Shown: one piece after another, positions 22,306 to 49,890 of the stretch
How positions within the stretch are numbered: position 1 is the first letter of the stretch
How the letters are laid out: each line of letters starts with the position of its first letter
Assembly (NCBI GenBank): GCA_945874455.1
Contig: CAMCHO010000003.1
Location: forward strand, 1-64,000
Source: Opitutus sp. GAS368
GTDB lineage: Bacteria > Verrucomicrobiota > Verrucomicrobiia > Opitutales > Opitutaceae
Reading direction: 5' to 3'
Length of the DNA stretch: 64,000 nucleotides
Made by a program: the position numbers and the translations under genes
The notes under the pieces: generated by a model
Seen by the model: the letters and a program-made list of their open reading frames with translations, nothing else
Database searches by the model: none
What the model was told of the DNA's origin: nothing

Positions 22306-22617
22306 ATGCTCCTACTCCGGGATCACCAAGGGCGTGAAGTTCGGCTCACCGACGAACGCCTCGCTCATATCCACGAGCACGCGGAAATGGCGGGTCTCGA
22401 TGCCGCGCTGGTGGAGACGCTACGCAGTCCCCAGTTCGTCATCGAGTCTTTGTCCGACCACGCGACGGCGTTGCATTACCGATACTATGTCGGCACACGG
22501 GTGGGTGACAAATGGCTCTGCGTCGTCGTCAAGTATGATGCACTCGACGCCTTCGTTTTAACCGCGTACCTTACCGATAAACTCAAGAAAGGAATCCAAC
22601 TATGGCCCAAACCGTAA
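22306..22617 (+). CDS. PBECR-type (EndoU/colicin/RelE-like) nuclease, probable toxin
   Basis: This 103-residue protein resembles the phage- and plasmid-borne nuclease families of the Barnase-EndoU-ColicinE5/D-RelE fold. It has RLTDERLAHIHEHAEM near residues 13-28, LRSPQFVIESL, LHYRYYVGTRVGDKWLCVVV, and the ending DAFVLTAYLTDKLKKG. The conserved His pair and the VVK/AYLTD strand agree with the family. Its end overlaps the DUF2283 gene by 16 bases. Such pairs behave like toxin-antitoxin operons, so I infer an RNase toxin and a small partner. The role is not proven by sequence alone. Confidence 0.82.
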   Translation: MLLLRDHQGREVRLTDERLAHIHEHAEMAGLDAALVETLRSPQFVIESLSDHATALHYRYYVGTRVGDKWLCVVVKYDALDAFVLTAYLTDKLKKGIQLWPKP

Positions 22618-22814
22618 AAGTCTGGTTCGACAAAGAAGGTGATTTTCTCGAAGTCCGCTTCTCAGAAAAACCCGGCTTCATGCGTGAAACCGACCACGAT
22701 GCCGTAATGGAGCGCGTGAACGACCAGGGCGAAGTGCTCGGCTTTACCGTCATGGCAGTGAGTAAACTCGACAAGGATCACCCGTTGGTTGCGCAGCTCG
22801 CGCAGGCTGGCTGA
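22602..22814 (+). CDS. DUF2283 protein, probable antitoxin partner
   Basis: This 70-residue protein matches DUF2283 (KVWFDKEGDFLEVRF near residues 5-19, and GEVLGFTVMAVSKL). A good ribosome site (AAAGGAA) lies about 9 bases before the ATG, inside the end of the nuclease gene. The 16-base overlap and the family context suggest it neutralises the upstream nuclease, although DUF2283 function is inferred from neighbourhoods. Confidence 0.85.
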   Translation: MAQTVKVWFDKEGDFLEVRFSEKPGFMRETDHDAVMERVNDQGEVLGFTVMAVSKLDKDHPLVAQLAQAG

Positions 22815-23375: not shown

Positions 23376-23912
23376 ATGGGCCTGACCCTCCACCCCCGCA
23401 TGCCCGCCCCCGCCGGCCTCTCCGCCCGCCGCGCCGCCGCGCTCGTCCGCCGTCTCCACGCCATTGCCAGCGAATTCGTCGCCGTCGGCTGCATCACCGA
23501 GGCACACCCCATCAGCTCAGAGCGCATCGAGCTCGCGCGCTGGGCGAATGCTTGGCGCAGCTTGCCCCACCCCGACCAACCCGACACCAGCTTCGGCGTG
23601 CAAATCACTCCCGATGCCGGCTGGATTTTTCCCGTCGATCTCGGCGACGATAGCGAACTGCTCCGGCGCGGCCTCTGTCGCTACCCTGCCATTGTGCCCC
23701 AGGGCACCGGCGCGATCGCCACCCGCCTCGGCCTGCGCTGGCAATTTTCCGCGTCCTGTAAAACGCACTACGCCAGCCTGCACGGCTGGAAACACTTTGC
23801 CCGCTGCCACACCGCCGCCGGCGGAAAAATCCGGCTGAAGGATCTCAGGAAGCAGCGCGACCATCCGCATCAATTCTGGCGTAAGTTCACGCGCGGACTC
23901 GCAGGAGACTGA
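23376..23912 (+). CDS. Hypothetical protein (178 aa)
   Basis: No family is recognised. The protein is soluble, with no signal peptide or membrane helix. The middle reads SFGVQITPDAGWIFPVDLGD and the end is basic and aromatic (LHGWKHFARCHTAAGGKIR, HPHQFWRKFTRG). Codon use and the conserved look of the centre suggest a real gene. It sits in the small island between the Bro-N remnant and an inverted-repeat element, so a mobile or accessory origin is plausible. A DNA- or RNA-binding role would fit the basic tail but is a guess. Confidence 0.55.
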   Translation: MGLTLHPRMPAPAGLSARRAAALVRRLHAIASEFVAVGCITEAHPISSERIELARWANAWRSLPHPDQPDTSFGVQITPDAGWIFPVDLGDDSELLRRGLCRYPAIVPQGTGAIATRLGLRWQFSASCKTHYASLHGWKHFARCHTAAGGKIRLKDLRKQRDHPHQFWRKFTRGLAGD

Positions 23913-23951
23913 GCGAAGCGAATCGCCGCCGACAGCATCGCCTGATTTTTA

Positions 23952-24118
23952 GGTAGGAAGATTTTTTTGGTAGGAAAATTTCGCGGGAAGTCTCCCGCAC
24001 GCTCTCTAGTTTTCTGGTCGATTTTCATCACCGGGGGCCGTGCTCCGGAATAGCGAGCGCGTGCAGGAAGAGCCAGTGAGCAGCGCTCGGTTTCTGCGGT
24101 TCAAAAAATTTTCCTACC
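23952..24118. repeat. Inverted-repeat element with internal hairpins
   Basis: A 13-bp perfect inverted repeat (GGTAGGAAAATTT at 23969-23981 and its complement at 24106-24118) encloses about 125 bases. A near-copy of the left arm (GGTAGGAAGATTT) lies 17 bases further left. Inside are a tight hairpin (GCGGGA with TCCCGC, 23983-23998), a CCGG-bounded stem and GAGCGC paired with GCGCTC. No coding frame fits. It may be a miniature mobile element or a structured RNA. Confidence 0.65.
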
Positions 24119-24218
24119 CTTGTTCCGAGTGCTGCTTGGAAATCACGCGAGCCGATCCTCCCGCCACCCACGCGCGCCTGCGCTTGCGCCCTACCCCCGC
24201 CCCCGCCTGACTCCCGCG

Positions 24219-39293: not shown

Positions 39294-39953
39294 TCACCCC
39301 ACCCGCGCAAACGCCACAATCTCGTTTTGCTCGCGGTGGTTCGTCCAAAACTTCGCGCCGTCCCACGCCAACGCCCGCGCTTGAAACGGAATGAGCGCCA
39401 CGTCCTCGCACTTCGGCTCACCCGATCCCGCGGACTTCACGTCGACCCGCGTAAGCCAATACTCGTTCGTCTCCTCCGCATCCGTCGTCACGAGGTAGAG
39501 CACACCGTCGACAAACACCTGCCCGCAAATCCCGTGCGGCACGCCGATCACGCGCTCCACTTTTCCGTCCGCGCCCAGCGCAATCACTTTTTTTGGATAC
39601 CATTGGCTCACGTGCAGGCGTTGCCCGTCGTAGCTGAGTTGTGACCCGGTGTCGTCCGGACAGGGCCAAGCCCATGTCGCGTCGAAGCCCATTCCCGGCA
39701 CCAAGCGCCTCACGACGCGGTTGTCCGCGGCCCCCTCGCTGCACAACACGCGCAGCTCGTTGCCCACGGCCGCCAACCCATACGGCGTCCCCGGAGCCGC
39801 GAACTCCACCTCCACCGCCCACGTCGCCGGATCGATCCCGTAAATCCGCTTCGTCTCGCGCGAGCCCATCCAGAGCGTCGCTCCATCCCACGCGAGCGAC
39901 TGCGGTTTCGGTGCCGGCGAAGCGAGGCGCTGCAACTCGTGAATGGCTTTCAT
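39294..39953 (-). CDS. Beta-propeller-like protein (SMP-30/glutamine cyclotransferase type)
   Basis: This 219-residue protein shows repeating four-strand blades (LAWDGATLWMGSRETKRIYG, LSYDGQRLHVSQWYPKKVIA, LAWDGAKFWTNHREQNEIVA). The W-D-G repeats resemble glutamine cyclotransferase-like or SMP-30-like propellers. No signal peptide is seen, so it is probably cytosolic. The start at 39953 is preferred to one 54 bases upstream because it fits the first blade. The function is unknown. It is divergent from the TonB receptor gene across about 140 bases. Confidence 0.75.
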   Translation of the reverse strand: MKAIHELQRLASPAPKPQSLAWDGATLWMGSRETKRIYGIDPATWAVEVEFAAPGTPYGLAAVGNELRVLCSEGAADNRVVRRLVPGMGFDATWAWPCPDDTGSQLSYDGQRLHVSQWYPKKVIALGADGKVERVIGVPHGICGQVFVDGVLYLVTTDAEETNEYWLTRVDVKSAGSGEPKCEDVALIPFQARALAWDGAKFWTNHREQNEIVAFARVG

Positions 39954-40091
39954 AGTGTGACCAGCATCAATGCGGCCCCGACCTTGGAAAGCCACAAACA
40001 CCCCCACTCCCTTGAAAATTCACCGCGCTGTAACCTTTCGGCTCATTTGGAGCGTGACCTCCACGCCCTCCGTCCCACGGTCCCCGCTCCC

Positions 40092-43000
40092 ATGAAGTCC
40101 TCGCTCTGCTCCGTCTTCGCGATCGCCTGCCTGCTGACGCCCAGCGTCCGCTTCACGTCGCTCGCGCTCCCCTTCGTCGCCGTTTCCGCCGTGGCGCAAT
40201 CAGCCGCCACCGGTATCATCGAGGGCCGCGTCACCCACCTCCGGACCGGCGATCCCGTCGAACGCGCCCGCGTCACGGTCGAAAGCACGACGCTCGAGAC
40301 CTTCACCGACTCCAGCGGCCTGTTTCGCCTCACTCAGGTTCCGACCGGCGCGGCCCGCGTCCGGGTGTTCTTCACGGGCCAAGCTCAACAGACCGCTCTC
40401 GTCACCGTCGCCCCGCGTGAGATTGCGCGGCGCGATTTCAGTCTCTCCTCCAGCCCGCTCCCGCCCGCGCCCGCCCCAGACGGTTCGATCGTGAAACTGG
40501 ACCAGTTCGTCGTCTCCAGCTCGAAGGAGATGGACGCCGCAGCCATCGCCATCAACGAGCAACGCTTCGCCTCATCCATCAAGAGCGTCGTCTCCGCCGA
40601 TGAGTTCGGCAGCGTGCTCGAAAGCAATCCTGGCGATTTTCTGAAATATATTCCCGGCATCACAATCGATTTCATCGGCGGCGCCGCGCGCTCAATCTCG
40701 ATTGGCGGCGTTCCCCCCGAATACGTGCCCATCACCGTCGGCGGCTTCGATGTCTCCAGCGTCGCCGGCGGCGGCACTGCGCGCAGCGTGGATTTTCACA
40801 CCCTCTCGATGAACAACATCTCGCGCCTCGAGGTCTTGCACTCGCCGACACCCGAATCACCAGGCTCCGCACTCGCCGGCTCGGTGAACATGATTCCCCG
40901 CAGCGCCTTCGACCGCTCCCGACCCGTTTTCAATTACAGCGTGTTCCTAATGATGCGCGACAACGACCGCCACCTCTTCAGCAAGACCCCCGGCCCACGC
41001 TGGATTAACACCCGCAAGGTTCACCCCGGCTTCGATTTCTCTTACCTCAAACCCGTCAACGATCGCTTCGGCTTCACGCTCAGCGGGGGTATGACCAAAC
41101 AATACACCGAGGAAGCCCGCACCGCCAACACATGGCGCGGCGCCGGTGCCGCCACCAACGGCCTCACCGCTACCACCGCGGCCACGCAGTATCCCGACAC
41201 GACCCCCGACAAACCCTACCTCACTGACTACGTCGTCGAAGACGGCGGCAAACACACCGAACGCACCTCCGCCGCCGCGACCGTCGACTACAAACTCTCC
41301 CGCAACGACCGCCTCTCCTTCTCCACCGAACTCACATTCTTCGCGTCGCCACTCAACCAGCGCACGCTCTCCTTTTTTGTGAACCGCGTCGCCCCCGGCG
41401 ATTTCACGACGACATCCACCCGCGGTCAGGTCGGCCGCGGCGAGATCCGCAACGCCTCCGCCTCGCGAAATCACCAACGCACGAAATACATGCCGACCCT
41501 CACCTATCGCCACGAGGGCCCCATCTGGAAAGCAGAGAGCGGACTCGGCTACTCCAACGAGCGACTCCATTTCCGCAGCACCGATAAGGGTTTTCTTAAC
41601 AACGTCACCTCCACCCGCCAAAACGTAACCGTAAACTTCGACGAGATTTTTTATCTCCGCCCCGGCCTCATCACCGTCACCGACGGCACGACCGGCGCTC
41701 CCGTCGATCCGTACAACCTCAGCAACTACGTCCTCTCCACTGCCAACGCCACCTACCGCCGCACCACCGACGTCAAGCGCAGTGCCTACGCCAATCTCCG
41801 CCGCGACTTCGATCTCGCCGGCACCCCGCTCGTCCTCAAAGCCGGCCTCGATATGCGCCAATCGATGCGCGACGATTTCCAGAGCACTCCGCCCTACACG
41901 TTCGTCGGCGCTGATGGCCGCGCCAGCACGAGCCCCACCGCCGCCGGGAGCGACGACCGCGCGAGCGTCGTCCTCGACGACGTCTTCTCCCTGCGCACCG
42001 CCCCCTACGGTTTCCCGCAAATTCAATACGTCAGCACCGAAAAAGCGTTCGCACTTTACCAAGCCAACCCCGCTTTTTTCACCCTTGATCCCAACAGTCT
42101 CTATCGATCCGAGGTCACCAGTTCGAAACGGGCCGAAGAACTCGTCTCCTCCGCCTACGTCCGCGGCGATGTCGCGCTCTTCAATCGCCGTCTGAAACTT
42201 GTCAGCGGCCTCCGGGCCGAGCAAACCAACGTCGATGCCGAGGGCCCGCTCAACGATCCCACGCGCAACTACCAGCGCAACGCTGCCGGCCAGGTCATCC
42301 GCAACGCCAACGGCACGCCCGTCCTGATTTTCCCCACCACCAACGCCCTCGCCGTCTCGCAGCTCACTTTTCTCGCCCGCGCCGGCCAGGCCGAAAAAGA
42401 ATACCTCCGTCTCTTCCCCAGTCTCAACGCGAGCTTCAACCTCCGCGAAAATCTCATCGCTCGCGCCGCCTATTACACCTCCGTCGGCCGCCCAAATTTT
42501 AACCAATACTCCGGCGGCGTCACCCTCCCCGATCCCGACGCCGCTCCCTCCAATACCAACCGCATCACCGTCAACAACGCCGCCATCAAGGCGTGGAGCG
42601 CGCAGACCGTAAAGGTGCGCCTCGAATATTATTTCGAGGGCGTGGGCCAGCTCTCGGTCGGCGCGTTTCAGCGCGAATTCGAAAATTTCTTCGGCGCCTC
42701 CGTCTTCCCCGCCACCCCGGAATTCCTGTCCTTCTACGGGCTCGATGCCGCGACCTACGGCCGCTTCGACGTCTCCACCCAGACCAACGTGCCCGGCACC
42801 GTCCGCATGAGCGGCCTCGAGTTCGACTACAAACAAGCACTCACTTTTTTACCACCGTGGGCGCGTGGCCTGCAGGTCTTCGCCAACGCCAGCGCCCTCC
42901 GCGCCACCGGCGACGACTCCGCTGACTTCGCCGGCTTCGTCCCCCGAACCTACAACTGGGGCCTCAGCCTCACCCGCGCGAAATTCAATCTTCGCGCCAA

Positions 43001-43274
43001 CTGGAACTACCGCGGCCTCAACCGCCAAGCCCCGCTCACCGGACGCAGTATCCAAGCCGGCACGTACACGTGGGGGGCCAAACAACTCTTCCTCGATCTC
43101 CAGGGTGAGCTTCTCCTCCGCCGGGGCTTCGCGCTCTTCGTCAATTTCCGCAACGTCGGCGATGCCACCAACGACACCGGCATCTACGGCCCGGGCACGC
43201 CCGAGCACGCCCAGTTCCGCCAGCGCACCACCTACGGCTCACTCTGGTCCTGCGGCATCAAGGGCTCATTCTGA
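40092..43274 (+). CDS. TonB-dependent receptor with carboxypeptidase-like regulatory domain
   Basis: This 1,060-residue outer-membrane receptor starts at 40092 with a signal peptide (about residues 1-35). An N-terminal CarboxypepD_reg-like domain covers about 38-115 (GIIEGRVTHLRTGDPVERAR). A TonB-box-like stretch (KLDQFVVSSSKEM) leads into the plug (DFLKYIPGITIDFIGGAARS), and the large barrel ends with the expected terminal Phe (SLWSCGIKGSF). The layout matches SusC-like verrucomicrobial receptors, but no SusD gene is nearby. The adjacent convergent gene is NamZ-like, which raises an amino-sugar or muropeptide link only as a guess. Confidence 0.94.
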   Translation: MKSSLCSVFAIACLLTPSVRFTSLALPFVAVSAVAQSAATGIIEGRVTHLRTGDPVERARVTVESTTLETFTDSSGLFRLTQVPTGAARVRVFFTGQAQQTALVTVAPREIARRDFSLSSSPLPPAPAPDGSIVKLDQFVVSSSKEMDAAAIAINEQRFASSIKSVVSADEFGSVLESNPGDFLKYIPGITIDFIGGAARSISIGGVPPEYVPITVGGFDVSSVAGGGTARSVDFHTLSMNNISRLEVLHSPTPESPGSALAGSVNMIPRSAFDRSRPVFNYSVFLMMRDNDRHLFSKTPGPRWINTRKVHPGFDFSYLKPVNDRFGFTLSGGMTKQYTEEARTANTWRGAGAATNGLTATTAATQYPDTTPDKPYLTDYVVEDGGKHTERTSAAATVDYKLSRNDRLSFSTELTFFASPLNQRTLSFFVNRVAPGDFTTTSTRGQVGRGEIRNASASRNHQRTKYMPTLTYRHEGPIWKAESGLGYSNERLHFRSTDKGFLNNVTSTRQNVTVNFDEIFYLRPGLITVTDGTTGAPVDPYNLSNYVLSTANATYRRTTDVKRSAYANLRRDFDLAGTPLVLKAGLDMRQSMRDDFQSTPPYTFVGADGRASTSPTAAGSDDRASVVLDDVFSLRTAPYGFPQIQYVSTEKAFALYQANPAFFTLDPNSLYRSEVTSSKRAEELVSSAYVRGDVALFNRRLKLVSGLRAEQTNVDAEGPLNDPTRNYQRNAAGQVIRNANGTPVLIFPTTNALAVSQLTFLARAGQAEKEYLRLFPSLNASFNLRENLIARAAYYTSVGRPNFNQYSGGVTLPDPDAAPSNTNRITVNNAAIKAWSAQTVKVRLEYYFEGVGQLSVGAFQREFENFFGASVFPATPEFLSFYGLDAATYGRFDVSTQTNVPGTVRMSGLEFDYKQALTFLPPWARGLQVFANASALRATGDDSADFAGFVPRTYNWGLSLTRAKFNLRANWNYRGLNRQAPLTGRSIQAGTYTWGAKQLFLDLQGELLLRRGFALFVNFRNVGDATNDTGIYGPGTPEHAQFRQRTTYGSLWSCGIKGSF

Positions 43275-47631: not shown

Positions 47632-47743
47632 CGAGGCCCTCGCCTCCCCCGGTTCATTTCGTCATGAGCAGCGTCATTCCTTTGTACATATACGTCGCCG
47701 GCGTCACCTCACCCGACTTGCGGGCGCCGTCAAGTAGTCGGCG

Positions 47744-47820
47744 GTAGGAGCCCGCTTGCGGGCGATGGAAGACGGCTACGACTCCGGTCTCGCTCAATCG
47801 CCCGCCAGCGGGCTCCTACC
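47744..47820. repeat. Paired REP-like hairpins (REP pair 1)
   Basis: Left arm GGTAGGAGCCCGCTTGC then GGGCGAT; the right end of the element is its complement with one mismatch, so the whole 77 bp can fold back on itself, and each half also forms its own small hairpin. It lies between the SDR and RhaI-type genes, which are convergent. Confidence 0.85.
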
Positions 47821-49621: not shown

Positions 49622-49657
49622 GACCAGCGGAACGAAAATCACAATCGCACCGCGCAT

Positions 49658-49837
49658 TTGTCACGGAATACGTGACAAGTTTCCAAGGGCGTGCGTCACG
49701 CCTCCAAGGCGACGACGGCTTGGTCGCACGAAGTTTGTCACGTAATACGTGACAAGTTTCCAGGGGCGTGCGTCACGCCTCCAAGGCGACGACGGCTTGG
49801 TCGCACGAAACTTGTCACGTAATACGTGACAAGTTTC
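49658..49837. repeat. Palindrome array, copies 3-5, 77-bp period
   Basis: Three TTGTCACGT-type palindromes start at 49658, 49735 and 49812, exactly 77 bp apart. The first has one changed base (CACGG in place of CACGT). The 56-bp spacers are near-identical and themselves contain inverted repeats (GGCGTG/CACGCC and CCAAG/CTTGG). The last copy extends to a perfect 31-bp palindrome at 49807-49837 with arms GAAACTTGTCACGT and ACGTGACAAGTTTC. Confidence 0.93.
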
Positions 49838-49890
49838 CGTCGGGGGGGGGCTGCGGTCGCGTTTCGCGCGGAAACACACGGGGCATCGCG

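Follow-up and report, generated by a model that had tools for sequence, protein, structure and literature searches.

A repeated inverted arm pair in Opitutus is very probably the core of a decayed IS630-related MITE

The first 64,000 nucleotides of contig CAMCHO010000003.1 of Opitutus sp. GAS368 (the window) include an inverted repeat at 23952-24118. Is this a mobile element, a structured RNA or a part of something larger? A sequence-only reading had described a bounded element with perfect 13-bp arms, internal stems and a second, near-identical left arm, and had offered a miniature mobile element or a structured RNA as its nature. A repeat search of the window found arms at 23952-23967/24103-24118 (16 nt, 94%) and at 23969-23981/24106-24118 (13 nt, 100%), together with a near-copy of the left arm at 17-bp spacing (23946/23963). 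The arms are assembled from 17-bp units, GGTAGGAARATTTTRTT; the left arm contains GGTAGGAARATTT twice at this spacing, the right arm contains it once. Perfect 13-bp inverted repeats no more than 200 bp apart occur at three places in the window, this being one of them, with 12 matches in total, of which this place contributes a single one, compared with a mean of 0.47 and a maximum of 2 in 30 Markov-shuffled windows. The sequence GGTAGGAAAATTT occurs six times at up to two mismatches, where 0.6 occurrences are expected. The arms in the window exceed chance. When 23946-24124 was folded as single-stranded DNA, the fold was better than that of all 200 shuffled sequences (z = -3.6). Repeat search and DNA folding thus confirm the perfect arms, the near-copy and the internal stems.

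The identity of the feature emerges from its relatives in the genus, in which convergent arm pairs show a spacing peak at 184-185 bp. Four paralogs from one genome (L060, L066, L067 and L091) share ~95% identity over ~382 bp, well beyond the arms. Their outer flanks are unrelated, and the similarity stops at terminal inverted repeats, TATCAATCCTTGCATAAGTTCGTGCAC and GTGCATGAACTTACGCAAGGATTGATA. In relatives the core is nested in a MITE of ~420 bp with terminal repeats of ~25 bp (TATCAATCCTTGCATAAGTTCGTGC) and TA at both ends; the terminus adjoining the TA is TATCAATC. The layout is constant in many copies: terminal inverted repeat, ~160 bp, 30-bp arm, 124 bp, 30-bp arm, ~75 bp and terminal inverted repeat. 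Intact copies, of which there are many in the genus, measure 407-423 bp, and most have TA at both ends. The family is therefore what is expected of MITEs, being multi-copy and short, with terminal inverted repeats and no room for a transposase. Among divergent copies, identity is 0.90-0.91 in the arms, 0.76 in the inner core and 0.83-0.89 in the termini. This MITE is a new family of the known IS630-related kind, the nested arms being the difference. The 13-bp arms lie inside the element and do not mark its ends; the coordinates 23952-24118 hold for the arms, the element itself starting at ~23868.

We consider it very probable that the feature in the window is the core of a decayed MITE of this kind, ~420 bp long with terminal inverted repeats of ~25 bp, inserted at TA and most likely moved in trans by an IS630-family transposase. 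The parts that can be recognised are listed in Table 1.

Table 1. Parts of the decayed MITE copy in the window.
Feature	Position	Strand	Basis
Left terminal inverted repeat, decayed	23868..23892	+	CATCAATTCTGGCGTAAGTTCACGC vs TATCAATCYTTGCRTAAGTTCRTGC, 4/25 mismatches; HMM model positions 2-39
Left subterminal part, shortened	23893..23951	+	HMM alignment jumps from model position 39 to 110 at 23906
Left arm	23952..23981	+	17-bp-spaced units 23952-23964 and 23969-23981
Inner core of MITE	23982..24105	+	best window match of inner-core HMM 23999-24082, 9 bits; alignment
Right arm, one unit only	24106..24118	-	two units in orthologs L063 and L068, 184 vs 167 bp
Right subterminal remnant, end approximate	24119..24160	+	HMM matches of L063/L068 reach model position 381/422

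An HMM of the MITE matches the window at 23906-24119 with an E-value of 9.7e-23 and, weakly, at 23869-23906; the stretch between the terminus and the part adjoining the left arm is short by about 70 model positions. The next best place for the left terminus in the 64 kb, on both strands, has 9 mismatches. To the right of the core there is no match to the terminus, and the right terminal repeat is absent from the window copy. With one terminal repeat of the two, this copy is, as judged from its sequence, a truncated relic of the MITE family and not an intact member. The score of the HMM built from the inner core alone is weak in itself, the match lying at the expected place and in the expected orientation. 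Because of this low score, much of the strong score of the whole model in the window is attributed to the arms, and arms are present outside MITEs as well. Models of the subterminal parts fit the window terminus slightly better as a right end (11.3 vs 4.5 bits), whereas forward is the orientation favoured by the core; the precise rearrangement of the window copy is ambiguous.

Orthologs in sister species (L063, G003:C189, and L068, G002:C96) have the core at the same locus, with the same flanks and upstream of the same M20 peptidase gene. Their right arm retains both 17-bp units, and the shorter core of the window is their form minus exactly one right-arm unit. The perfect 13-bp arms are therefore the remainder after the loss of this unit, a loss for which slippage or recombination involving the tandem pair of units may be responsible. 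Decay has cost the window copy, besides the ~70 model positions, one unit and its right end, and it would no longer be able to move. No clean empty site was found for this copy; L183 (G005) has other DNA there.

A search with the MITE terminus identified a 1126-bp insertion sequence (L223, G003:C293) whose ends, TATCAATCGTTGCAT..., match those of the MITE. Its 304-aa open reading frame is an IS630 transposase (NF033545, E-value 6e-61; DDE_3, E-value 3e-31). Of the seven genus genomes searched, one (G003) yielded the transposase; in the host it was not found. The copy at L091 is a chimera of MITE and IS630 element, in which the left part is MITE and the right end is identical to the right end of the insertion sequence at 126 of 130 positions. 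It interrupts a TonB-dependent-receptor-like gene, which was named from its sequence and not by family search. The flanks of L091 with a single TA are in frame and ungapped at the join when compared with three uninterrupted homologs, one of which lies in the window at 39939-43274; this evidence of an empty site concerns one copy and compares homologous genes, not alleles. The junction fits insertion at TA by an IS630-type transposase, with duplication of the TA. An occupied and an empty site, which the sequence-only reading had suggested looking for, are thus found in relatives at the L091 gene. A transposase of the IS630 type would have moved these MITEs, and the chimera, as indirect support, suggests that an IS630-family (Tc1/mariner-like) transposase most likely cut and pasted the MITE in trans. 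The proposed miniature mobile element holds good as to kind, given the multi-copy MITE, the IS630 partner and the empty site; its boundaries do not, and what survives in the window is a truncated remnant.

The same reading had placed the feature at the end of an island of phage-like and toxin-like remnants at 22.0-24.1 kb. The island is half borne out. At 22306-22814 lies an open reading frame for a PBECR2-like nuclease, with a score of 24.7 bits against a Pfam cut-off of 27.1, which overlaps a DUF2283 open reading frame; the two look like a toxin-antitoxin-type pair. Compared with its counterparts in G002, G003 and G005, the gene at 23376-23912 lacks its 3' portion. This deletion fuses it to a small open reading frame remnant that runs into the MITE terminus, so that the reading frame ends inside the left terminus; the gene adjoins the element as a result of the loss. 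No search showed that 22.9-23.1 kb derives from a phage.

How widely the arm occurs was assessed by pattern and BLAST searches, all genus genomes being draft assemblies. The host genome, of 5.07 Mb in 333 contigs, has 17 occurrences of the 30-bp left-arm pattern at up to three mismatches and none of the reversed control. In a sample of 38 genomes the arm pattern is present in seven of the nine genus members, including the host, and in none of the 29 others. Among 289 genomes drawn from the phylum the exact form of the arm is confined to the host. An exact-match scan of named genomes located it in Opitutaceae MAGs, in some groundwater and lake Verrucomicrobia MAGs and in two Stieleria genomes. 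The exact pattern is absent from the viral contigs searched, which gives no link to phage. The core is multi-copy and has counterparts in relatives; the single copy with nothing in relatives that would have refuted the sequence-only reading was not what the searches showed.

The arms are also found apart from the MITE. Other repeats in the genus contain tail-to-tail arms at 79 bp and ~158 bp. The two Stieleria genomes, which belong to the Planctomycetota, contain 89 and 66 matches to the arm pattern (control 0), counts to which tandem arrays add several matches each. Of 24 inverted pairs read in Stieleria, 17 span 87-88 bp. The arms are conserved independently of each other and are present outside the MITE; the internal arms are for this reason most likely either targets of a DNA-binding protein or the termini of a nested, older element, as far as sequence comparison can tell. 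We tentatively suggest, at somewhat less than even confidence, that the 30-bp arm GGTAGGAARATTTTnnnGGTAGGAARATTT is an undescribed dispersed DNA module of Verrucomicrobiota and Planctomycetota, occurring in inverted pairs at a few fixed spacings (79 bp for tail-to-tail pairs and, for head-to-head pairs, ~87 bp in Stieleria and 184 bp in the MITE), in tandem arrays and in at least two repeat families, and that a DNA-binding protein may recognise it, perhaps a transposase belonging to another element. The arm sequence was not found as text in the literature, where sequences mostly sit in figures and supplements. A role as a DNA-uptake sequence seems unlikely, there being too few arm sites per genome in the genus.

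Several further arrangements of the arms were observed. A second repeat family of the genus has tail-to-tail arms around ~98 bp, 158-160 bp in total (G000:C237, C300, C72 and C79; G003:C60; G005:C29; G008:C109), some members having an extra inserted module. In Stieleria (L138, L143, L158, L176 and L259-L298) the same unit, of 16/17 bp, makes up tandem arrays of 4-7 units or more. The same loci include dozens of dispersed inverted pairs, mostly of 87-88 bp, with conserved arms and a variable middle, and several inverted pairs are common to two species, as judged by their flanks. A gene for a 264-aa GxxExxY (PDDEXK_3) protein with a C-terminal extension lies between arm pairs at G002:C421, G002:C249, G007:C638, G000:C101 and L133; at G002:C421, G007:C638 and L133 there is a 79-80-bp tail-to-tail pair on each side of it. 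An autonomous element consisting of this gene between arms was considered and rejected. The arrangement occurs in a single type of neighbourhood, by DUF1553/DUF1501-like genes, in several genomes. The gene is regarded as a bystander because other GxxExxY matches have no arms nearby.

Could the 167/184-bp piece itself be mobile, an older MITE whose terminal repeats are the GGTAGG arms and which became nested in the IS630-type MITE? The arms are the best-conserved internal parts of the MITE and occur without it, the Stieleria pairs resemble terminal repeats around a variable middle, and the doubling of the unit in each arm would be in keeping with a transposase that has tandem sites. On the other hand, no target duplication lies beside the arms in the Stieleria flanks read, no transposase gene was found between arms, and the tail-to-tail pairs at 79 and ~158 bp are unexplained unless elements stand in rows. 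We regard this nested origin as unlikely, though worth keeping in mind. A structured RNA or regulatory hairpin, such as a terminator or processing site, is very improbable. The DNA fold described above would suit it, as would the inner-core helix, in which two-sided changes number 33 cells compared with 12.6 in shuffles (0 of 500), although the alignment that yielded the helix, made of related copies, is also the one scored. As RNA, however, 23868-24160 folds unremarkably (z = -1.48), no Rfam family matches at its gathering threshold and terminator-like sites are at chance level. Nor is the pairing of arms within elements above that between elements (0.87 vs 0.89 shuffled in Stieleria, 0.892 vs 0.888 in the genus). 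A tRNA search found none. The structured RNA of the sequence-only reading is therefore rejected as the main explanation, a verdict that does not extend to the inner helix.

The presence of GTAG in the arm unit raised a further possibility, namely that a tyrosine (Y1) transposase moved the feature as a REP/BIME-like dimer. GTAG REPs, with head-to-head and tail-to-tail dimers, have been described in PVC bacteria, and Opitutus terrae has them in abundance (PMC3733652); the host genome has four Y1_Tnp genes. A single arm, however, has no hairpin of its own, and by inspection no REP-like stem is visible in GGTAGGAARATTTTRTT. Arm units lie within ~1.5 kb of none of the four Y1_Tnp loci of the host and none of the 11 of Stieleria, and across all 34 Y1_Tnp loci there are only isolated arm matches with two mismatches. 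The true GTAG-plus-hairpin elements of the window also differ in sequence from the arms. We consider this origin very improbable. The elements in question, at 47743-47820, are two facing GTAG-headed hairpins, GGTAGGAGCCCGCTTGCGGGC and GGTAGGAGCCCGCTGGCGGGC, like a GTAG REP pair. At 49655-49838 the window contains a tandem repeat of ~79 bp, in slightly more than two copies, around the palindrome TTTGTCACGTAATACGTGACAAGTTTCC.

The decayed IS630-related MITE, the preferred reading, can be compared by description with known small repeats. RUP of Streptococcus pneumoniae, for which mobilisation by IS630-Spn1 at TA has been proposed, is likewise non-autonomous, multi-copy and mostly intergenic, with IS630-like terminal repeats and TA as target (PMC2229807). 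RUP is 107 bp long, has terminal repeats of 9 bp and is not reported to contain a further motif, whereas the MITE described here has ~420 bp, repeats of ~25 bp and two internal arms of tandem units (PMC2229807). The Correia/NEMIS repeats of Neisseria are also small, terminate in TA, contain an internal motif and come in several sizes; they differ in length and terminal repeats, and their internal motif is an IHF site in place of the 17-bp units (PMC2229807). The GTAG REPs of the RAYT system resemble the arms in their GTAG-containing unit, in head-to-head and tail-to-tail pairing and in their presence in PVC bacteria, but the arms lack both the hairpin form and the linkage to Y1 transposase genes, and the ends of the MITE are IS630-like (PMC3733652). 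Nothing relevant on MITEs in Verrucomicrobia was found in the limited literature searched.

The analysis adds a MITE family for which there is a matching IS630 partner, along with a natural empty site and a MITE/IS chimera; no example of such a pairing was found for this bacterial group in a limited literature search. It also illustrates that the apparent ends of an element, in this case the arms, can prove to be internal. The nested arm module, common to a distant phylum at fixed spacings, poses a testable puzzle, namely which protein reads the arms.
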